Source: Acidobacteriota bacterium (GTDB taxonomy: Bacteria > Acidobacteriota > Terriglobia > Bryobacterales > Bryobacteraceae). Taken from it: a DNA stretch of 64,000 bases. Under the pieces are notes generated by a model. It was not told the origin of the DNA. It searched no databases and saw nothing but the letters and a program-made list of their open reading frames with translations. How positions within the stretch are numbered: the first letter of the stretch is position 1; the number at the start of each line of letters is the position of its first letter. The DNA lies in contig JAFKEE010000049.1 of NCBI GenBank assembly GCA_017307505.1, positions 1 through 64,000 on the forward strand. Reading direction: 5' to 3'. The position numbers and the translations under genes were made by a program. Positions 9,806-18,975 of this stretch are shown one piece after another.

Positions 9806-10351
9806 TTACTTCACACGGGCGAGCAGATCGGACAGATAGGTCCGCCCGTCGCCCTGTTTCTGTGACAGGAGCCGCAGCGTATTCCGGGCGTCGTCCAACG
9901 CCCGGTGGGCCGCTTCGGCCACGATGTTGTGGTGGCGCAGCAGTTCCTGCAGGCCTTTCGAGCGGAAGCCCTTGTTGCGCCAGGCCACGCCGTCCATGGA
10001 GCACATCCACGGCAGGCGGCCGCACTCCGGGTAGAGCCGAGCCACGAAGCCGCGGTCGAAGCGCGCGTTGTGGGCGATCATCATGGAACTGCGCGCGAAG
10101 ATGCTCCGCACGGCGATGTCGTCCAGCATCTTGCCGCGCACATCATCCCACGTCAGGCCATGCGCCTCCGTGGCGCCGGCGGGAATGGGACGGCCCGGGT
10201 CGCGCAGCCCGGTGTACTCGTCCACCACCCCGTAGACTTCCCCGCTGAAGCGGTCGAACTCGAACAGGACGAGGCCGAGTTCAATCACTTCGTCGGTGGT
10301 GTTGCTGAGACCTGTTGTCTCGACATCGGCAATGCAGGCCTTCAATCTCAT
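9806..10351 (-). CDS. DnaQ-like 3'-5' exonuclease
   Basis: A 181-residue DEDDh exonuclease similar to the DNA polymerase III epsilon subunit. ExoI DVETTGL is near residue 8, ExoII is in HNARFDRGF, and ExoIII His-Asp is in AHRALDDARNT, so all metal ligands are present. It is the last gene of the histidine operon: its ATG overlaps the hisA stop (ATGA), so it is probably co-transcribed. There is no functional link to histidine synthesis in the sequence. It may be a proofreading or repair exonuclease, or act on RNA. It converges on the nuclease gene with only 24 bases between the stops and no obvious terminator. Confidence 0.85.
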   Translation of the reverse strand: MRLKACIADVETTGLSNTTDEVIELGLVLFEFDRFSGEVYGVVDEYTGLRDPGRPIPAGATEAHGLTWDDVRGKMLDDIAVRSIFARSSMMIAHNARFDRGFVARLYPECGRLPWMCSMDGVAWRNKGFRSKGLQELLRHHNIVAEAAHRALDDARNTLRLLSQKQGDGRTYLSDLLARVK

Positions 10352-11049
10352 TGGGCGTTCAACGCTGCCAATTCTTTCAGGTCGAGGCGGCCGGTGTAAA
10401 TGGCCATGCCCAGGGCGCAATCGATCTGGAGCGCCGTCAACTGGCGGATGTCGTCGAGCGTGGTGATGCCGCCGGCGGCCGTGATGTTCTTCTGCGTGAT
10501 GGAGCGCAGGCCGCGGAACCACTCGATGTCAGTGCCCTGCAGCATGCCTTCCTTATCGACATAGGTCGCCAGGTATGCGCCGCAGTAGGGTTCCAGTTGC
10601 GCGATCACCTGTTCGGCGGTCAGGTCCAGGCTGGCGGTCCAGCCCTTCACCGTAATGCGGCCGCCCTTGGTGTCAATCGCGATCATCACGCGTTCCGGCG
10701 TGACTTCCTGCGAGATGGCGGAGAGGAGTTCGTGGTTCACGCCTGTCTGGGTGAAGGCGGACGTTCCGACGATGACGGAATCGGCGCCGCAGTCGACCAG
10801 GGTGCGGGCGCGCTGCGGGGTCCTGACTCCGCCGCCCACGCGGCAACGGGCCTTGCTGGCGAGCATCTCGACAATCGCGTTGTTCTCGCCGCGGCCCATA
10901 GCGGCGTCGAGGTCGATCACCTGAATCTCAGGGAAGTCGCGGAAGCGCTCCAGCATCTCCAGCGGCGCCGCGCCTTCCAGGGCTTTCTGGCGGCCTTGCA
11001 CCAGTTGAACGACCTTGCCGTCCTGCAGGTCGATGCACGGAATAATCAA
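10348..11049 (-). CDS. hisA: ProFAR isomerase HisA
   Basis: A 233-residue TIM barrel that converts ProFAR to PRFAR, the fourth step of histidine synthesis. The N-terminus [16 protein letters not shown] contains the general-base Asp. The second catalytic Asp and the phosphate-binding loops lie in AIDTKGGRI and [11 protein letters not shown]. Length is normal. The start overlaps the hisF stop and the stop overlaps the exonuclease start, both as ATGA. The adjacent paralogue hisF shares the half-barrel architecture. Confidence 0.95.
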
Positions 11050-11810
11050 GCGGTTCTCCTCACCGGAATGCCGGCTTTCTCAAGTTCGGCTTTCAACTGA
11101 TCCACGGTATATGTGCCGTAGTGAAAGATGGATGCGGCCAGGGCGGCGTCGGCTTCGCCGTCGGTCAGCACGCGAATGAAGTGTTCGGGCGTACCGGCGC
11201 CCCCGGAGGCGATGACGGGGATGTGTGTGGCACGTGACACGGCGCGGGTCAGGGCGCAATCGAAGCCGTCCTGGACTCCGTCTGTATCCATTGACGTGAG
11301 GAGGATCTCACCGGCACCCAGGGCTTCGCCGCGCGCGGCCCACTCCACGGCGTCGATGCCTTCGTCCACGCGGCCGCCCTTGGTGTACACGTTCCAGCCG
11401 CCCTTGGTGTTGCGCTTGGCATCAATGGCCAGGACGCACGCCTGCGCGCCGAACTCGTTGCTGACTTCGGTGATCAGCTCCGGCCGCCGGACGGCAGCCG
11501 TGTTGACGCTCACCTTGTCCGCACCGGAGTGGATGATGCGCCGGGCGTCTTCCACCTCACGAATGCCGCCGCCCACGGTGAGCGGGATGAAGACCTTGCG
11601 TGCGGTGCGGGCGACGACGTCGACCATGGTGTCGCGGCCGTCCGACGACGCCGTGATATCCAGGAAGACGAGTTCGTCGGCGCCCTGCTCGTTGTAGCGA
11701 TCGGCCAGTTCCACCGGATCGCCGGCATCGCGCAGCCCCACGAAATTGACGCCCTTCACGACGCGGCCGCCGGTGACGTCCAGGCACGGAATAATGCGTT
11801 TGGCCAGCAT
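11046..11810 (-). CDS. hisF: Imidazole glycerol phosphate synthase cyclase subunit
   Basis: A 254-residue TIM barrel that, with HisH, turns PRFAR and ammonia into imidazole glycerol phosphate and AICAR. The start [20 protein letters not shown] carries the catalytic Asp; the second is in [10 protein letters not shown]. Phosphate loops are seen in [12 protein letters not shown] and [12 protein letters not shown]. The start at 11810 is fixed by the conserved N-terminus, two bases after the hisH stop. Upstream in-frame sequence belongs to the shadow of hisH. It is immediately followed by hisA with a 4-base overlap. Confidence 0.96.
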
Positions 11811-11812
11811 AC

Positions 11813-12406
11813 TTAGAGCTCCACGAAATTCCTGACGATCTTCAGCCCGAGCGGTCCGGACTTCTCCGGATGGAACTGCACGCCGAAGACGTTGCCGCTC
11901 TCCAGCACCGCGGTGTAGTCGCGGGTGTAGTGGCAGGTGGCGGCGGTGGCTTCGCTGAGCGGGCAGTAGTAGCTGTGCGCGAAATAGACATACGGCTTCG
12001 GGCCGATGTCGCGCAGCAGGCGCGGGGCGCCCAGCGGGACGATCTCGTTCCAGCCCATGTGCGGGACGCGGGCGTCCAGGGGAAACCGGCCCACCTGGCC
12101 CGGAAACAAACCAAGGCCTTTCTGTTCCGGAGCCTCTTCGCCGCCTTCGAACATCGCCTGCAGGCCAAGACAAATGCCCAGGAAGGGTGAGCCGGACTTC
12201 GCCTTGCGCACCAGGGCGTCCCGCAGGCCCAGTTCATCCAGGGCGCGCATCATCTGTCCCAGATGGCCGACTCCGGGGAGGATCACCTTTTCCGCCGAAT
12301 CGATCTCCGCCGCGCTCTGGGTCAGGTGATAGGTGGCCCCAATCTCGCCGAGCGTGTTTTCCACGGACCTCAGATTGCCCGCACCGTAGTTGACGACCGT
12401 GATCAC
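11813..12406 (-). CDS. hisH: Imidazole glycerol phosphate synthase glutaminase subunit
   Basis: A 197-residue class I glutamine amidotransferase supplying ammonia to HisF. The nucleophile Cys is in [14 protein letters not shown], and the His and Glu of the triad are in [10 protein letters not shown]. The start is the GTG at 12406, whose product begins [14 protein letters not shown]; it overlaps the hisB stop as GTGA. A longer reading from 12487 would run into hisB and has no family support. Two bases separate it from hisF, as expected for subunits made in equal amounts. Confidence 0.94.
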
Positions 12407-12993
12407 AGCAGTCCTTTCGTGGAGGGTAGCTGGTCTTTCAGCCGCGCGTCCTTCGAGCAGGCGAACTTCATAGCCCGCGCGAAACACTTGAAGATGGCTT
12501 CCACCTTGTGATGGTTTGAGCGACCGTGCATGATCTTGGCGTGCAGGTTCGCGCCGGCGTGGGTGGTGAAGCCGTGGAAGAAGTCCTCCAGGAGTTCGGA
12601 TTGGAGGTCGCCCACCAGGCGAGTCTTCACGCGGTCCTCGTAGACGAGGTAGGGACGTCCGCCCAGGTCGACTGCCGCCACGGCCAGTGTCTCGTCCATC
12701 GGCAGAACGAAGTAGCCGGCGCGGTTGATGCCCTTGCGGTCGCCGAGCGCCTTGGCAAAGAGCTGGCCCAGCACGATGCCGGCGTCTTCCACGGTGTGGT
12801 GCTGGTCGACATCGAGGTCGCCGCGCGCGATGAGCGCCATGTCGAAGCCGCCGTGCTTGGAGAAGAGCTCGAGCATGTGGTCGAGAAAGCGCACTCCGGT
12901 GGAGATCTCGTAGCGGCCCTTGCCCTCGATGGTGAGGCTGGCGCGGATCTGGGTCTCTTTGGTGATGCGTTCAATGACGGCTGTGCGCTTCAT
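12403..12993 (-). CDS. hisB: Imidazoleglycerol-phosphate dehydratase
   Basis: A 196-residue monofunctional dehydratase for the seventh pathway step. Manganese-binding His clusters appear as [11 protein letters not shown] and [11 protein letters not shown], with an [10 protein letters not shown] segment between the two structural repeats. It lacks the N-terminal HAD histidinol-phosphatase domain present in E. coli HisB, so that activity must come from another protein. The HAD gene directly upstream, overlapping by 4 bases, is the obvious candidate. Confidence 0.95.
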
Positions 12994-13673
12994 GGCAGAA
13001 CTCCTTCCAACTGATTGATATCTTCCAGCACGGCGATGGCGGCCTCTGCTTTCAGTACTTCCACGAGCTCCGCGTGGCGCGGGTTGGCGGGCGCGGCGAT
13101 GCCGATGAACGGGACCCCGGCGGCACGCGCGCTACGGGCGTCGTCCACCGTGTCGCCCACATAAAACATTTTTACACCGGGACGTTCCGCACGGATGAGG
13201 TGCAGGCCCTGCGGATGGGGCTTGTGTTCGGTCACGCTCTCCATGGTGATCATCGGCGAGAAGACGATGCCGGAGGCGAAGCGGCGCAGGGTGTGCGCGG
13301 CATCTTCCAGGGGCCGGCCGGTGAAGATGGAGAGGTCATAGCGTTCGCTGAGCCGCTCCAGCAGGCCGTTGCGCGGCACCCACTGCTCTTTCAGGATGAG
13401 GCCATTGAAGTCGTCGCCCAGGAAGATCTGATTGAAGCGTTGGATGACGTCTTCATAGGGGACGTCGACGCCGAGGTCCTGGCACAGGCGCTGGGAGAGG
13501 GCCCAGTCGTTGTTCCAGCCGCCTTGGTTCTTGTAATCCTGGATCCGTTCCCGCGGCACCTGCTGGCCGGTGAAGTGGGCAACAGTCTGGACGATGGTTT
13601 CGCGATACGAATCGCCGACCTCGGCCAGGACGCCATCCATGTCGAAGACGAGCAGCGAGTCCTTCACTTCCAC
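12990..13673 (-). CDS. HAD phosphatase in the his operon, candidate histidinol-phosphatase
   Basis: A 227-residue HAD subfamily IA protein. Motif I is [11 protein letters not shown], motif II is IFTGRP, the motif III Lys is in EHKPHPQG, and motif IV is [12 protein letters not shown], so it should be an active phosphatase. It lies between hisC and hisB, overlapping both by 10 and 4 bases. No PHP-type or inositol-monophosphatase-type histidinol-phosphatase is seen in the operon, and HisB is monofunctional. The inference is that this protein removes phosphate from histidinol phosphate. A related HAD-IA clade is known to sit near hisB in some organisms. It could alternatively act on another his intermediate or be a housekeeping phosphatase. 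Confidence 0.75.
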
Positions 13674-14713
13674 ACCTCGTCCAGTGCCTGGAAGAAGCGT
13701 GCCACCTGGGCTGTGGTGCCGGCGGTGACGCGCACCGTGCCTGCGAGCTCATAGCTGCGGTCGCGCACCAGGATGCCGCGCGCCCTGAGGGTATCCCTCA
13801 CCGGAACTGCCTGCGCTCCGGCCTGGAAGAGGACGAAGTTGGCCTGGCTGGGGTAGTAGGCGATGCCGCGTTTCTCGAAGCCGCGGTAGAGCGCTTCGCG
13901 TGCTTCCACGGCCTGTGCGGCGTAGTTCGAGACGTAGGCTCGATCTTCCACTGCTGCCCGAACCGCGATGGCCGCCAGCAGGTTGACGCTGTACGGCGAC
14001 TGCGCCTTGTGCATGTATTGCACATTCTCCTTCTGGGAGAACAGGCAGCCGACGCGGAGCGCTGCCATGCCGAAGGCCTTGGAGAACGTGCGGCTGACGA
14101 ACAGGTTTGAGTACTGATCCGTCATGCGCAGTGCCGTCACGCCGTAGAACTCGTAGTAGGCTTCGTCGATCAGGACAGCCGCATTGGGCGCGGCCTCTAG
14201 GATTCGCACGATATCGCCGATTCCGATTGCCGTCCCTGTCGGGTTGTTGGGATTCGAGATCAGGATGGCCTTCGTGTCCGGCCGGATCGCGGCGATCAGT
14301 TCCTCGATGGGAAACGCCAGGTCGCCCGCCCGATAGGGGATCTCGCGCACCTTGGCTCCGGCGACTTCGGCATAGAAGCGGTACATCGCATAGGACGGGT
14401 GCAGCACGATCACATCGTCGTCGTTGTCGACATAGGTGTTGATCAACACCTGGATCGCTTCGTCCGTGCCGTTCGTGATGAGGAACTCGGATTGCGGTAC
14501 CTGGAAGTAGTCCGACAGTGCCAGCCGTGCCGCCTCGTACTCCGGATACACGGTCAACTGCTCTTCGTTGAGCTTGGCGCGCAGGAGTTTCAGTACCTTC
14601 GGCGAGCAGCCTACGGTGTTCTCGTTAAAGTCCAGCCGCAGTTTCCCGTCGCGGCCCGAGGCGGGCGGCGAATAGGGAGCCATCTCGACGACAGCCGGTC
14701 TGGGCTTAGGCAT
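13664..14713 (-). CDS. hisC: Histidinol-phosphate aminotransferase
   Basis: A 349-residue fold-type I PLP enzyme that transaminates imidazole acetol phosphate with glutamate. The PLP-binding Lys lies in SRTFSKAFGMAALRVG. Other family motifs are DFNENT near the start, NPNNPTG, and LIDEAYYEF with the PLP-contacting Asp. ATG 14713 is chosen because GGAGG lies six bases upstream; an ATG at 14737 would add eight unconserved residues. The gene overlaps hisD by eight bases and the HAD gene by ten. Confidence 0.94.
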   Translation of the reverse strand: MPKPRPAVVEMAPYSPPASGRDGKLRLDFNENTVGCSPKVLKLLRAKLNEEQLTVYPEYEAARLALSDYFQVPQSEFLITNGTDEAIQVLINTYVDNDDDVIVLHPSYAMYRFYAEVAGAKVREIPYRAGDLAFPIEELIAAIRPDTKAILISNPNNPTGTAIGIGDIVRILEAAPNAAVLIDEAYYEFYGVTALRMTDQYSNLFVSRTFSKAFGMAALRVGCLFSQKENVQYMHKAQSPYSVNLLAAIAVRAAVEDRAYVSNYAAQAVEAREALYRGFEKRGIAYYPSQANFVLFQAGAQAVPVRDTLRARGILVRDRSYELAGTVRVTAGTTAQVARFFQALDEVWK

Positions 14714-15947
14714 TGCGCACCTCCACGGATCGCGCATGAGCTTCCAAGCCCTCGGCCCGCGCGAGTGTCGTGATCGCCGGAGTCAGCGCCCGCAGGGCCT
14801 TGCCCGACAGTTCCTGCACGGAGATCACCTTTACGTAATCGGCCGCACTCAAGCCGCCGCGCAGCCGGGCCGCGCCGGAGGTCGGCAGGACATGGTTCGG
14901 ACCCGACGCGTAGTCGCCCGCTGCTTCCGGGCTCGTCGCACCGACAAAGACGCTGCCGGCATGCCGGATGCCCGGCAGGAGTTTCGCGTCGTGAATGGAC
15001 AGATGCTCGGGAGCAAACCGGTTGGACAGTTCCACCGCTTCAGACGTGTCGGCCACCAGGATGACCGCTGAGTTCTTGTCGATGGCGACTCGCGCCGTGG
15101 CCGCGGTCGGCAGGGTCTGAAGCTGTTTTTCGACCTCAATCACCACGGCTTCCGCCAGCTTGCGGGAAGTGGTGAGGAGGATCGCCGAGGCGTCGGTGTC
15201 GTGTTCCGCCTGGGCGAGCATGTCGGCGGCCAGCCAGGAGGGATTCGCCTCTTCTGCGATGATGAGGATCTCCGTCGGGCCGGCCACGAAGTCGATGCCC
15301 ACCTCGCCGGCCAGCATCTTCTTGGCTGCGGCTACATAGATGTTGCCCGGGCCCACGATGCGATCCGCGCGCGGCACAGTCTTCGTACCGTAAGCGAAAG
15401 CCGCGATGGCGTGCGCTCCGCCCATCTCGAAGACGCGTGTCGCGCCGAGGATCGAGGCGGTGCCGAAGATCTCATCCACGGGCCGCGGCGAACACACCAT
15501 GATGTTGCCGACGCCCGCCACCAGCGCGGGCACGACGGTCATGATCACGGTGGAGGGCAGGGGATAGCGGCCGGCGGGAATGTAAGCGGCCACCGAATCC
15601 AGCGGCCGCACGATCTGGCTGAGCTTCAAGCCCGGGGAGGGCTGGGCCTTTTTCACTTGCGGCAGTTGCAGTTTGGCGTAGGCTTTGACGTTCTTCGCGC
15701 TGGTGGCGACGGCCTTGCGAAACGCGGGCGACAGGCGAGACGCCGCAGCTTGGAGTTCCGCGCCCGGCACTGCCACACTCTTGCGGGTCAGCTTGTCGAA
15801 CTTCTGCGCGTACTCCAGCAGCGCGGCATCGCCGCGGGTCCGGACTGCCTCCAGAATGGGCCGTACGGCCTCTTCCGCTTCCGTCATCCGGGCCGCGCGC
15901 CGTTTCAGCAACCGCCCGGCCTGCCTGGATTCGACGATTCGTAGCAT
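14706..15947 (-). CDS. hisD: Histidinol dehydrogenase
   Basis: A 413-residue zinc- and NAD-dependent enzyme catalysing the last two oxidations of histidinol to histidine. Recognisable signatures are SVAAYIPAGRYPLPSTV, IVGPGNIYVAAAKK, IDFVAGPTEILI, AQAEHDTDASA and the late FAPEHLSIH, which include the zinc ligands and catalytic residues. It is a little shorter than E. coli HisD but complete. It starts nine bases after the hisG stop. Confidence 0.96.
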   Translation of the reverse strand: MLRIVESRQAGRLLKRRAARMTEAEEAVRPILEAVRTRGDAALLEYAQKFDKLTRKSVAVPGAELQAAASRLSPAFRKAVATSAKNVKAYAKLQLPQVKKAQPSPGLKLSQIVRPLDSVAAYIPAGRYPLPSTVIMTVVPALVAGVGNIMVCSPRPVDEIFGTASILGATRVFEMGGAHAIAAFAYGTKTVPRADRIVGPGNIYVAAAKKMLAGEVGIDFVAGPTEILIIAEEANPSWLAADMLAQAEHDTDASAILLTTSRKLAEAVVIEVEKQLQTLPTAATARVAIDKNSAVILVADTSEAVELSNRFAPEHLSIHDAKLLPGIRHAGSVFVGATSPEAAGDYASGPNHVLPTSGAARLRGGLSAADYVKVISVQELSGKALRALTPAITTLARAEGLEAHARSVEVRNA

Positions 15948-15956
15948 GCGCGGCTC

Positions 15957-16826
15957 CTACAGAATGATCTTGTTCAACGGGTACTCGACGATACCTTCCG
16001 CGCCCGCCTGCTTGAGCCGCGGGATGATAGTGCGCACGGTGGATTCATCGAGGATCGTGTTGACGGCGAACCACAGGCCGTCGCTGAGCGGGCTGATCGT
16101 CGGGTTCTTCAGGGCCGGCAGTACCCCTAACACCGACTCGAGATTCTCCTTGTTGACGTTCAGCATGAGGCCCACTTTGCCCAGCGCGTTGATGGCGCCC
16201 TGCAGCAGCATCCGCATGTCTTCCAGCTTCTGCCGCTTCCAGCCGTCGGCCCAGGCCGCTTTGTTGGCCACGAGCTGGGTGTTCGATTCCATCACCGTCT
16301 CGACGATGCGGAGCTTGTTCGCGCGCAGGGAGCTGCCGGTCTCGGTCACTTCCACGATGGCGTCGGCCAGTTCGGGCGGCTTCACTTCCGTGGCGCCCCA
16401 GCTGAACTCCACCTTGGCGGTCACGCCGTTGGCGGCCAGGTAGCGCCTGGTGGCGCCCACGAGCTCCGTGGCGATGATCTTGCCTTCCAGGTCTTTCACC
16501 GTTCTGACGGGGGATGCTTCCGGTACGGCGAGCACCCAGCGCACCTTGCCGAAGCTCTGCTTGGCATAGATGAGGTCGGCGACGGTTTCGACTTCCGAGT
16601 CATTCTCGATCACCCAGTCGCGGCCCGTGAGGCCGGCGTCCAGTACGCCATCTTCGACGTAGCGGGCCATCTCCTGCGCGCGGATCAACATGCATTCCAC
16701 TTCCGGATCGTCGATGGAGGGGAAGTAAGAGCGGGACGACGTGGTGATATTGAAGCCGGCGCGGCGGAACAGATCGACGGTGGCCTGTTCCAGTGAGCCC
16801 TTCGGGATGCCGAGTTTGAGTTTCAT
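15957..16826 (-). CDS. hisG: ATP phosphoribosyltransferase, long form
   Basis: First committed and feedback-controlled step of histidine synthesis, joining ATP and PRPP. At 289 residues this is the long HisG form, with catalytic domains I-II up to about 205 ([30 protein letters not shown]) and a C-terminal ACT-like histidine-binding domain. Long HisG does not need HisZ, and no hisZ is seen. Histidine inhibition is expected from the regulatory domain, adding enzyme-level control to the transcription attenuator upstream. Confidence 0.95.
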
Positions 16827-16848: not shown

Positions 16849-17217
16849 TTAATAGACGGCTTTCGGGTCGTAGGTCTGTGCTTCGGTGATCTTCCACTCG
16901 CCTTCTTCCAGGGTCCGGAAGAAGCACGACTGGTAGCCTTCGTGACAGACGCCGGGTCCCTGCGCCTCCACCTGCACCAGCACGCAATCTTTGTCGCAAT
17001 CGGTCTGGATCGACTTCACCACCAGGGTGTGGCCCGACGATTCGCCTTTGGTCCAGAGCTTGTTGCGGCTGCGGCTATAGAAGGTGGTGAGCCCCGTGGC
17101 CACGGTCTTCTGAAACGCTTCCTCGTTCATGAAACCGACCATGAGTACACGGCCCGTGGTCACATCCTGGACAACGGCGGGAATCATGCCGCCGGTCTTA
17201 TTGAAGTCGAGATCCAT
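16849..17217 (-). CDS. hisI: Phosphoribosyl-AMP cyclohydrolase
   Basis: A 122-residue hydrolase opening the adenine ring of PR-AMP. Metal-binding cysteines are in [13 protein letters not shown] and [22 protein letters not shown] and [13 protein letters not shown] are conserved family blocks. It is not fused to the HisE pyrophosphohydrolase, and hisE is absent from the window, so that gene must be elsewhere. The start is ATG 17217, which begins the family sequence ([10 protein letters not shown]); a GGAG lies about 11 bases upstream. It is the first structural gene after the attenuator. Confidence 0.93.
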
Positions 17218-17240
17218 AGTGTCGATTACTCCAGCAAACG

Positions 17241-17276
17241 AAAAGCCCGCCTGGTCCTGGCCGGACCGGGCGGGCT
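17241..17276 (-). terminator. Intrinsic terminator of the his attenuator
   Basis: On the minus strand the RNA from 17276 to 17244 folds into a 14-bp stem with a single C/A mismatch and a 5-base GGCCA loop. The arms are AGCCCGCCCGGTCC and GGACCAGGCGGGCT. The stem runs straight into TTTTCGTTT. It sits between the leader peptide stop and hisI, exactly where a regulated terminator belongs. Confidence 0.87.
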
Positions 17277-17360
17277 CTGAATCTTTTCCTGCGCTGCCTC
17301 GCTCAGGACAAAGAACGCCCGCCCACCCCATGATGATGGTGATGATGCCGGGCGATGTTC
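17244..17360 (-). promoter_or_regulatory. Histidine operon transcription attenuator
   Basis: Three mutually exclusive pairings are visible on the minus strand. Segment 1 (17360-17349, GAAC and GCCCG separated by ATC) pairs with segment 2 (17324-17313, GGGCGGGCGTTC), with the six His codons in the loop. Segment 2 (GGGCGGGC, 17324-17317) is also a perfect 8-bp match to GCCCGCCC (17275-17268), the 5' arm of the terminator. A ribosome stalled on the His codons would cover segment 1, free segment 2 to sequester the terminator arm and allow read-through. With ample charged tRNA(His) the terminator forms. This is the classical Salmonella/E. coli logic; operation here is inferred from sequence. Confidence 0.85.
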
Positions 17361-17374
17361 CGAGCTGACTGCAT
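17303..17374 (-). CDS. hisL: His operon leader peptide with six consecutive histidines
   Basis: A 23-codon open frame running ATG 17374 to TGA 17303. The product begins MQSARNIAR, then has six His in a row (codons CAT CAT CAC CAT CAT CAT at 17347-17330), then GVGGRSLS. Its only evident role is to report histidyl-tRNA availability through ribosome stalling. The -10 element TATACT at 17388-17383 puts the expected transcript start about two bases before the ATG, so the mRNA would be essentially leaderless, which fits the absence of a Shine-Dalgarno sequence. Confidence 0.87.
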   Translation of the reverse strand: MQSARNIARHHHHHHGVGGRSLS

Positions 17375-17382
17375 GAAACATC

Positions 17383-17388
17383 AGTATA
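17383..17388 (-). promoter_or_regulatory. -10 element of the his operon promoter
   Basis: TATACT on the minus strand, a five-of-six match to the sigma-70 -10 consensus. It lies nine bases from the leader peptide ATG. No convincing -35 hexamer is seen at 16-18 bases upstream. The divergent PadR promoter begins about 30 bases away, so the two transcription units share a short control region. Confidence 0.55.
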
Positions 17389-17461: not shown

Positions 17462-17815
17462 ATGAAACCGGACCCCACGAAGTTCCTGCCGCTGCTGCCG
17501 GCGTCGCTGCACATCCTGCTGGCGCTGAGCGCGGGCGAGCTGCACGGCTACGCCATCATGCAGGAGGTGGCGCGGCAGTCGGACGGGCGGTACAAGCTGG
17601 GTCCGGGGACGCTATATGACAACCTGCAGCGGCTCACGGCGCAGGGTCTGGTGGAGGAGGCGGGCGCCCGGGAAGGGGACGACGATCCGCGCCGCCGCTA
17701 CTACCGGCTGGGCACACTGGGGCGTGGCGTCCTCAGCGCCGAGGTGGAGCGTATGGAAGCGATCGTCCACGCGGCCAAGCTGCGCCTGTCGAGGGCAAAA
17801 TTCGGGAGGGCCTGA
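17462..17815 (+). CDS. PadR-family transcriptional regulator
   Basis: A 117-residue winged-helix repressor-type protein. The PadR N-terminal domain spans about residues 12-85: LHILLALSAGELHGYAIMQEV, then the recognition-helix region GPGTLYDNLQRL, then the wing with RRRYYRLG. A short C-terminal helix probably mediates dimerisation. Its stop overlaps the next start as TGATG, so the pair is translationally coupled. In Acidobacteriota, PadR genes commonly precede ADOP-type permeases; here the partner is a different membrane protein. The likely target is its own promoter, which faces the his promoter. Confidence 0.9.
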   Translation: MKPDPTKFLPLLPASLHILLALSAGELHGYAIMQEVARQSDGRYKLGPGTLYDNLQRLTAQGLVEEAGAREGDDDPRRRYYRLGTLGRGVLSAEVERMEAIVHAAKLRLSRAKFGRA

Positions 17816-18975
17816 TGTTGCGGTCTCTCTACATTCAGCTTTTGCGTCTCCATCCCGCGGCGTTCCGGCAGCGGTATGGCGATGAGATGCTCTCCATTTA
17901 TGACGAAGCGGCCCGAGCCGGCAGTGCATGGCCGCTCTTTGGGGACGCCTGCCTCTCGCTGGGCCGCCAGTGGCTTCTGCGGGAGAACGAGCCTGAGCCG
18001 CAATCCGCCGCGCTGGCGTCGAACGACGGGGTGCCGGTGTTCTATTGTGCCGACACCTCGATGCCGCCCAAGAGCGCGCTGGTGCATGGCGGGCTTGTCG
18101 CGCTGGCCGCCTTTGCCCTCGTGGCGTTTGCCCTGGGGCACGGGCAGGGCCGCCGCCCCTGGGACACCACGTTCCAGGGCTCCAGCCGCGGCGTGGCGGG
18201 CTCGACTGGTTTTGGCGTGGAAGGCGGGCAATCGGCGATCGCTTTTGGAGGCGGGGCCAGCGGCGGCCGGTCCTCCGCGCGGAGCGATGTGGGGACCGAC
18301 TCCGTGTGGGTGCGCATCCTGCGCTTTTACGAGAACATCTTCTCCAAGCCGCGCCCGCCGGCTGTTCGCGAAGCGGCCGCCGGTTCCTGGACGCCCGCGC
18401 CGCCGCCCGCCGCCGCCGGTGCCCGGCCGGCGCGCTCCCTTGTCTATCTCGCCGTGTCGCCCCAGACCTTCGACGCGAATCACGATGGCGTGCTCTCGGC
18501 GGAGGAGATCGCCAACGCCGGATCCGCATTACGCGGGATGGATCGCAATGGCGATGGCCGGCTCACCGCAGAGGACTATTTCACGCCGGTCCGGCCGTCT
18601 GCGCAAGCGGCTCCTGAAGGGGAGCCGGAGATCCAGGCAGCGGCACCCGCCGGGGCTCCGCTTCCGCAGAGCCGCGCCGAGCGATCCCTCTACCCCACGC
18701 GCACAGCGGCCGAGTACGGCATTCTGCGGCAGCGGAGCGAAGATTCCTACTCACTGGAGATCGTGCAGGGCACGGAAGCGTCCGACCCCGAGGCAGCGCT
18801 GGTCCGCCTGCACCCGTTGTTGTCGGCGCTGGACACCAACCATGACGGCGAACTGTCGGCCGAGGAGATGCGCAATGCGCCGGCGGTGCTGCGCCGTCTC
18901 GACAGGAATCACGATGGCCGCATCTCCATGGACGAGTGGCCGGTGACGCCGCTGGTCCAATCCAGGATGCGCTGA
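17815..18975 (+). CDS. Membrane protein with four EF-hand-like calcium loops
   Basis: A 386-residue protein. The N-terminal ~60 residues (LLRLHPAAFRQRYGDEML) resemble the prefix domain found before PadR-linked ADOP permeases, but no FtsX permease follows. One transmembrane helix is at about 87-104 (LVALAAFALVAFALG). After a Gly/Ser- and Pro/Ala-rich linker come two pairs of EF-hand loops: DANHDGVLSAEE with DRNGDGRLTAED at about 220-260, and DTNHDGELSAEE with DRNHDGRISMDE at about 340-378. Each has the DxNxDGxxxxxE/D calcium pattern. It may sense or bind calcium at the membrane. Coupling to PadR suggests the two form one regulatory unit; the mechanism is unknown. Confidence 0.75.
   Translation: MLRSLYIQLLRLHPAAFRQRYGDEMLSIYDEAARAGSAWPLFGDACLSLGRQWLLRENEPEPQSAALASNDGVPVFYCADTSMPPKSALVHGGLVALAAFALVAFALGHGQGRRPWDTTFQGSSRGVAGSTGFGVEGGQSAIAFGGGASGGRSSARSDVGTDSVWVRILRFYENIFSKPRPPAVREAAAGSWTPAPPPAAAGARPARSLVYLAVSPQTFDANHDGVLSAEEIANAGSALRGMDRNGDGRLTAEDYFTPVRPSAQAAPEGEPEIQAAAPAGAPLPQSRAERSLYPTRTAAEYGILRQRSEDSYSLEIVQGTEASDPEAALVRLHPLLSALDTNHDGELSAEEMRNAPAVLRRLDRNHDGRISMDEWPVTPLVQSRMR

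Follow-up and report, generated by a model that had tools for sequence, protein, structure and literature searches.

The closest described counterpart of the element reported here is the his attenuator of E. coli and Salmonella (Rfam RF00514, His_leader), which combines a leader peptide carrying a run of His codons, a terminator before the first his gene and mutually exclusive hairpins. In E. coli, an untranslated stretch precedes hisL and the attenuator uses six segments; the trp, thr and phe attenuators have a four-segment layout (1:2, 2:3, 3:4). His-leader attenuation is reported for Proteobacteria and some Firmicutes, and the Firmicutes leaders, found in three lineages, carry three to five His codons in a row and lie before his operons together with a terminator and an antiterminator; no RF00514 match is reported for them, and the word "leaderless" is absent from the main text of that paper (PMC9413887). 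Two other systems are linked to leaderless initiation. The RNA of the Sinorhizobium meliloti trpL attenuator is described as beginning with the ATG of the leader ORF, giving a small leaderless mRNA (PMC7298713), and mycobacteria are described as having leaderless short ORFs with polycysteine runs ahead of operon genes, which according to the citing papers act on downstream translation (Canestrari et al., 2020, as cited in PMC9031893 and PMC13236596). Leaderless genes, marked by a −10-like box around 12 bp upstream, were found in all three Acidobacteria genomes covered by Zheng et al. (2011), at 13.3% on average (PMC3160421). A 2010 survey gives almost no predicted acidobacterial attenuator with an assigned function (PMC2965389), and our search of the open-licence literature turned up no paper describing His attenuation in Acidobacteria, which fits the remark in the initial annotation of this DNA that the mechanism is poorly documented in the phylum.

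The window analyzed here is a 64,000-nucleotide stretch from an Acidobacteriota bacterium (contig JAFKEE010000049.1). It contains a his operon in the order hisI-G-D-C-HAD-B-H-F-A, with all genes in one direction and separated by overlaps or short gaps (Table 1). The hisA assignment is probable, judged from the best-matching family and the position of the gene, and the HAD-family hydrolase is a possible candidate for the histidinol-phosphatase. A scan of ten operon proteins showed no hisE. Directly after hisA lies a 3′-5′ exonuclease-like ORF (9806–10522, minus strand; PRK09182-like, below cutoff) that is possibly co-transcribed with the operon. On the other side, back to back with the his promoter, is a divergent ORF pair (17462–18975, plus strand); one member is small and, by resemblance, possibly a PadR-like regulator, and the translation of the other has EF-hand-like DxNxDG repeats.

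Table 1. Genes of the his operon and elements of its leader in the window
Feature	Position	Strand	Basis
−10 element TATACT	17383–17388	−	sequence; near-locus conservation; core of 8-sequence alignment
Predicted transcription start, at the A of the leader ATG or up to 2 nt before it	17374–17376	−	−10 spacing
Leader peptide ORF, 23 codons + TGA	17303–17374	−	sequence; conserved frame
Segment 1, GAACATCGCCCG, predicted to pair with segment 2	17349–17360	−	folding; weak cross-species support
Six consecutive His codons (putative sensor)	17330–17347	−	sequence
Segment 2, predicted antiterminator 5′ strand	17317–17329	−	folding; alignment; own-partner test
Segment 3, predicted antiterminator 3′ strand, overlaps terminator 5′ arm	17263–17275	−	folding; alignment
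Terminator-like hairpin (segments 3:4), 14 bp, −29.4 kcal/mol	17243–17277	−	folding; conserved strength
U-tract TTTTCGTTT	17236–17244	−	sequence
hisI, phosphoribosyl-AMP cyclohydrolase	16849–17217	−	NF000768, 152.9 bits (cutoff 126)
hisG	15957–16826	−	TIGR00070, above cutoff
hisD	14706–15947	−	TIGR00069, above cutoff
hisC	13664–14737	−	TIGR01141, above cutoff
HAD-family hydrolase	12990–13673	−	TIGR01548, below its cutoff; HAD-IA subfamily TIGR01549, above its cutoff
hisB (dehydratase)	12403–12993	−	NF002111, above cutoff
hisH	11813–12487	−	TIGR01855, above cutoff
hisF	11046–11810	−	TIGR00735, above cutoff
hisA	10348–11049	−	TIGR00007, 174.2 bits, below its cutoff of 228.95

Upstream of hisI, a short ORF opens with ATG at 17374–17372, encodes the peptide MQSARNIARHHHHHHGVGGRSLS and ends with TGA at 17305–17303, so that the 23-codon leader with six consecutive His codons proposed in the initial annotation is borne out. 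Like the E. coli his leader, this region has a His-run peptide followed by a terminator-like hairpin and competing pairings; it differs in that the E. coli leader folds into more hairpins and precedes hisG rather than hisI. We conclude that a ribosome-mediated attenuator that senses charged His-tRNA very probably controls this operon, from an RNA that would start at the leader AUG or within about 2 nt of it. The earlier description of the element as a "classical" attenuator holds for the principle and not for the layout, which has four segments (1:2, 2:3, 3:4), unlike E. coli his; its attenuator reading is supported overall, and it had missed a conserved promoter immediately before the leader start codon. 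RF00514 was the Rfam match to the window with the lowest E value (24.1 bits, E 0.058), short of the gathering score of 49 bits. At the gathering threshold, no Rfam family matched anywhere in the window, T-box included, and none matched in 40 related loci. The acidobacterial his leader is filed as a classical-type attenuator outside RF00514.

In the proposed mechanism, RNA polymerase would start at the leader AUG or at most about 2 nt from it; because of such a start, the ribosome would have to load on a 5′-terminal AUG by leaderless initiation. When charged His-tRNA is scarce, the ribosome would stall on the first His codons and cover segment 1, leaving segment 2 free to pair with segment 3; the terminator could then not form, and transcription would continue into hisI. 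When His-tRNA is plentiful, the ribosome would reach the stop codon and cover segment 2, and segments 3 and 4 would form the terminator. Because segment 2 would be covered if stalling happened at the final His codons, effective sensing probably falls to the first one or two of them.

Conservation of the leader was assessed in sets of related hisI loci. A first survey covered 41 genomes (own, genus, family and order), 40 of which had a hisI match; the best 30 loci were taken and 29 were usable, the window's own included (L012 is cut by a contig end). A short frame with at least three His codons, two of them adjacent, was present in 21 of the 29 loci and absent in 8. A near set was then drawn from the 80 nearest genome records, mostly Bryobacterales, Bryobacteraceae or Solibacter with some labeled just Acidobacteria or Terriglobia, which gave 79 usable hisI loci (the contig of L106 starts inside hisI). 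The nearest of these are from a Bryobacterales MAG (89% HisI identity) and, among others, a Paludibaculum sp. MAG (84%), which bears out the acidobacterial origin that the initial annotation gave as probable. At least four His codons within seven, no more than 350 nt upstream of hisI, were found in 77 of these 79 loci. The antisense strand of the same loci gave 0/79 by this rule and 2/79 when three His were allowed, and random windows of the near loci gave a His-rich frame in 6 of 1378. The locus sets overlap: many near loci are from the same genomes as L001–L030, and the leader of L031 is that of L095. Counts of promoters and hairpins below refer to 79 leader-bearing near loci, that is, the 77 with a leader plus the window (L001) and L003. 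Leader conservation, which the initial annotation had put forward as a check, extends from close to distant relatives (77/79 near loci and 53/109 loci across the phylum, described below).

Within the leader, it is the His codons that persist. The 77 near leaders contain 265 CAT and 182 CAC codons, a mixture that points to conservation of the residue and not of the nucleotides. When eight close relatives were aligned, the −10 core, TTCATG, the His codons, TGGGCGGG, CTGAG, GCCCGCC and GCGGGC were kept, and the remainder mostly drifts. His-rich small proteins exist, and the ORF could in principle encode one, for example a metal-binding protein unrelated to attenuation; we regard this as highly improbable, given that little besides the His cluster is kept across families, that the ORF occurs where hisI leads into hisG and is absent where hisI lies inside the operon, and that a strong hairpin with a competing partner follows it. 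The leader peptide may have an additional role in trans, by analogy with S. meliloti peTrpL as described in PMC7298713. Elsewhere in the 9.4-Mb genome, a run of six His codons gave five overlapping matches at four sites, the leader included; the other three were rejected as further leaders, with the His frame at each open for at least 230 codons.

A −10 element, TATACT (17388–17383), ends 8 nt before the leader ATG in the window. Leader start codons in the relatives were picked from the frame alone, usually as the last ATG (ATG or GTG in the phylum set) before the His run, and the best −10 match still fell 8–10 nt before the start in 72/79 near loci (8 nt in 48, 9 nt in 19 and 10 nt in 5). The hexamer was TATACT itself in 50/79, and it was preceded by TGN in 70/79; the window locus has no extended TG. 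Across the phylum, TANNNT lay 7–10 nt before the start of 47/53 leaders, compared with 4% of shuffled upstream sequences, and a match to TTGACA at five or six of six positions stood 16–18 nt away in 40/53, compared with 56/5300 shuffles. In the near loci, each position from −60 to −20 upstream of the leader held at most 0.25 bits; what is conserved is the −10 region and the bases beside the ATG. Shine-Dalgarno-like 4-mers preceded the leader in 3/79 near and 5/53 phylum loci, and preceded hisI in 19/77 near loci. The arrangement by which Zheng et al. recognized leaderless genes, a TANNNT −10 box about 12 bp upstream with no Shine-Dalgarno motif, is found in the window and in most loci (PMC3160421). 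Because the −10 box stands so close before the leader start in most loci, the leader mRNA is probably leaderless, with its start site placed by the −10 spacing.

The same attenuator could instead be carried on an mRNA of the usual kind, which has a 5′ UTR and offers a ribosome-binding site to the leader, TATACT not being the −10 element that defines the start. Consistent with this, a promoter scan listed no promoter in the window, the window locus has no clear −35, and there is no clear genome-wide leaderless signal. We nevertheless consider it unlikely, since the upstream conservation is so confined, the −10 spacing is fixed within 8–10 nt in most near loci, other families add the TTGACA match, and Shine-Dalgarno-like motifs are rare before the leader. 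The genome-wide signal was examined with TATACT-spacer-ATG patterns in the window's genome, which gave 22 matches with N8–9 and 11 with N15–16; the reversed patterns, used as controls, gave 10 and 12, respectively. Apart from the leader, TATACT-N8–9-ATG opened a likely gene in 11 of 21 places, compared with 5 of 11 at the control spacing, a weak contrast. These 21 places were mostly long ORFs or very short frames, and no amino-acid-run leader was seen among them; the long ORFs of the near loci showed no peak at 8 nt for the −10 spacing. A general leaderless signal around this motif was set aside as weak, and the leaderless reading of the leader mRNA draws on the family of his-leader loci and not on such a signal.

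Between the leader ORF and hisI, sequence and folding together predict an intrinsic terminator. The 14-bp stem length given in the initial annotation was correct; the hairpin extends from 17277 to 17243, one base wider at each end than the 17276–17244 proposed there, and no coordinate of that annotation was off by more than one base. The region 17376–17230 folded better than all 200 dinucleotide shuffles (z −4.39), and a simple terminator scan did not list the 17277–17243 hairpin. A hairpin with a T-rich tail preceded hisI in 79/79 near and 52/53 phylum loci (it was mis-parsed in a few, L031, L050, L051, L091 and L167). A lax rule that accepts any hairpin strength with a T-rich tail also matched 191/237 shuffles, so just the strength of the hairpin is informative: at −15 kcal/mol or stronger, such hairpins were found in 79/79 near loci, compared with 37/237 shuffles, and in 51/53 phylum loci.

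If the hairpin were not a terminator, the element might act as a translational attenuator or an RNA switch on hisI translation. The U-tract of the window is interrupted (TTTTCG) and the hairpin ends only 25 nt before hisI, both of which would suit this reading, but the hairpin includes neither the hisI start nor its GGAG, and strong hairpins with T-rich tails, many with at least five T in seven, accompany the leader throughout the near set and in all but two phylum loci. Control of hisI translation is accordingly improbable, and transcription termination is the reading we prefer. In this respect the locus, with its terminator-like hairpin, would differ from the mycobacterial Cys leaders, which share the leaderless short ORF and the codon run for the sensed amino acid and which the citing papers describe as acting on translation (PMC9031893, PMC13236596).

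The pairings that would operate the switch were examined by folding and by permutation. Segment 1 and a segment 2 taken as 17324–17313 (GGGCGGGCGTTC), as the initial annotation had it, form a duplex of −15.1 kcal/mol that contains a small interior loop. The claimed 8-bp pairing of segment 2 with the terminator 5′ arm at 17275–17268 was recovered as part of a longer computed antiterminator of 12 pairs, two of them read as G-U, in which 17329–17327 and 17325–17317 pair with 17275–17267 and 17265–17263. In 45/78 near loci the 2:3 duplex had a better energy than in 95 or more of 100 shuffled spacers, and for 1:2 this was so in 23/78 (L003 was set aside from this test). When partners were swapped among all 124 loci, 2:3 pairing was worse in 5000/5000 permutations. 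Since relatedness can inflate such tests, it matters that this preference for the own partner was also seen within families and after thinning to 25 of the 124 loci (about 66% identity). The antiterminator arms thus co-vary by the partner-swap test, in answer to the compensatory-change check that had been suggested for the stems. For 1:2, the near set passed the same test, and in the other families 170/5000 permutations were as good. Five loci with a suspect parse or near-set overlap (L031, L050, L051, L167 and L032) were left out of the own-partner tests. That the element is a chance product of a GC-rich intergenic region is barely credible: shuffling leaves GC-rich spacers with fairly good pairing and often yields weak terminator-like hairpins, but the antisense and random-window controls, the partner-swap permutations and the conservation of the leader all contradict it.

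We then modeled equilibrium folding with a ribosome on the first His codon (stalled), with a ribosome at the stop codon, or with none, in 77 near loci (without L003 and L091) and in 48 of 52 phylum loci (without L031, L050, L051 and L167). Upstream sequence held the terminator 5′ arm with a mean probability of 0.86 stalled, 0.20 at the stop codon and 0.70 with no ribosome in the near loci, and 0.81, 0.15 and 0.65, respectively, in the phylum loci. Shuffled spacers gave 0.63, 0.40 and 0.63 (near) and 0.62, 0.40 and 0.59 (phylum). The stalled value exceeded the stop value by 0.3 in 74/77 near and 48/48 phylum loci. Folding and permutation together therefore predict a competing antiterminator that stalling would free and a ribosome at the stop codon would block, in support of the mutually exclusive pairings claimed earlier. 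In the equilibrium model, stalling and completion are well separated, and the untranslated state is not clearly off: the no-ribosome value differs little from the stalled one, which gives a protective 1:2 stem weak support. In the window without a ribosome, before the 3′ arm is made, the equilibrium fold likewise favors 2:3 over 1:2, and the 1:2 pairing is the least supported part of the layout.

With a ribosome stalled on the His codons of the window, the full-terminator fold (−46.6 kcal/mol) is still more stable than the antiterminator fold computed for the RNA that lacks the 3′ arm (−40.7 kcal/mol), so the switch must be kinetic, decided during transcription. In the same calculation, the bias toward the terminator was stronger for the E. 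coli his leader (−56.0 compared with −29.1 kcal/mol). The ribosome-position model gave 0.76 stalled, 0.76 at the stop codon and 0.00 with no ribosome for E. coli his and so did not reproduce that six-segment attenuator; the model was built for a four-segment layout.

Of 297 acidobacterial genomes surveyed across the phylum, 178 had a hisI match, and 109 of these (29 + 80), taken from near the top of the ranking and not as a random draw, were examined. A leader preceded hisI in 53/109 loci, with 0/109 on the antisense strand, and leaders occurred in 10 of 31 families, among them one (f4) with a leader in all 28 loci. Gene order accounts for the absence of the leader from most of the remainder: it was present in 53/55 loci in which hisG follows hisI and in 0/54 with other gene orders, and a HisA/HisF-type gene lay upstream of hisI in 46 of these 54. 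The two exceptions with hisG next, L034 and L035, have a stretch that, judged by eye, looks coding up to hisI.

The front of the operon was also examined from hisG. Of 40 selected genomes, the majority lacking a leader at hisI, 39 had a hisG match, and the best 30 loci were scanned whole. By the rule of four or more His within seven codons, 8/30 had a leader, with 0/30 antisense. Six of these leaders lie no more than 300 nt before hisG (L232, L233, L234, L235, L243 and L246), that of L251 lies about 1 kb before it, and that of L224 had already been counted at hisI. Leaders thus stand before hisI in some families and before hisG in others, which places them at the operon front in different gene orders. 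By eye, a −10-like box is present 7–10 nt before the leader start codon in L233, L234, L235, L243 and L251.

Twelve examined loci had no leader before hisI: the 8 of 29 from the first survey, L135, L138, L034 and L035. In seven of them (L019, L022, L025, L026, L027, L029 and L135) hisD rather than hisG follows hisI, so the operon is rearranged; the change at its front apparently involved the control region as well, and a leader may lie at another position. hisG is next in the other five (L013, L030, L034, L035 and L138). In L030, a TATACT box upstream of hisI and a terminator-like hairpin stand almost next to each other and enclose no leader; this might be a degenerate or mis-assembled attenuator that would be off.

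The proposed attenuator would extend His sensing of this kind to a major, little-studied soil phylum and combine it with leaderless initiation across a deep phylogenetic range. A precedent for that combination, S. meliloti trpL, senses Trp in an alphaproteobacterium (PMC7298713); here the amino acid is His, the phylum is Acidobacteriota and the leaderless start is predicted. In the window, promoter, start codon, sensor and terminator fit within about 150 nt, a compact, testable module for asking how, with no ribosome-binding site, a ribosome can reach the polymerase soon enough. We think it likely that histidine synthesis in Acidobacteriota is widely controlled by a leaderless his attenuator, probably of old origin, with a sensor at the operon front in families that differ in gene order, in which the polymerase start and ribosome loading on a 5′-terminal AUG are coupled because the sensor begins at about nucleotide 1. 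If this is true, the switch would respond to the charging of His-tRNA and also to how well the cell can initiate on leaderless mRNA.
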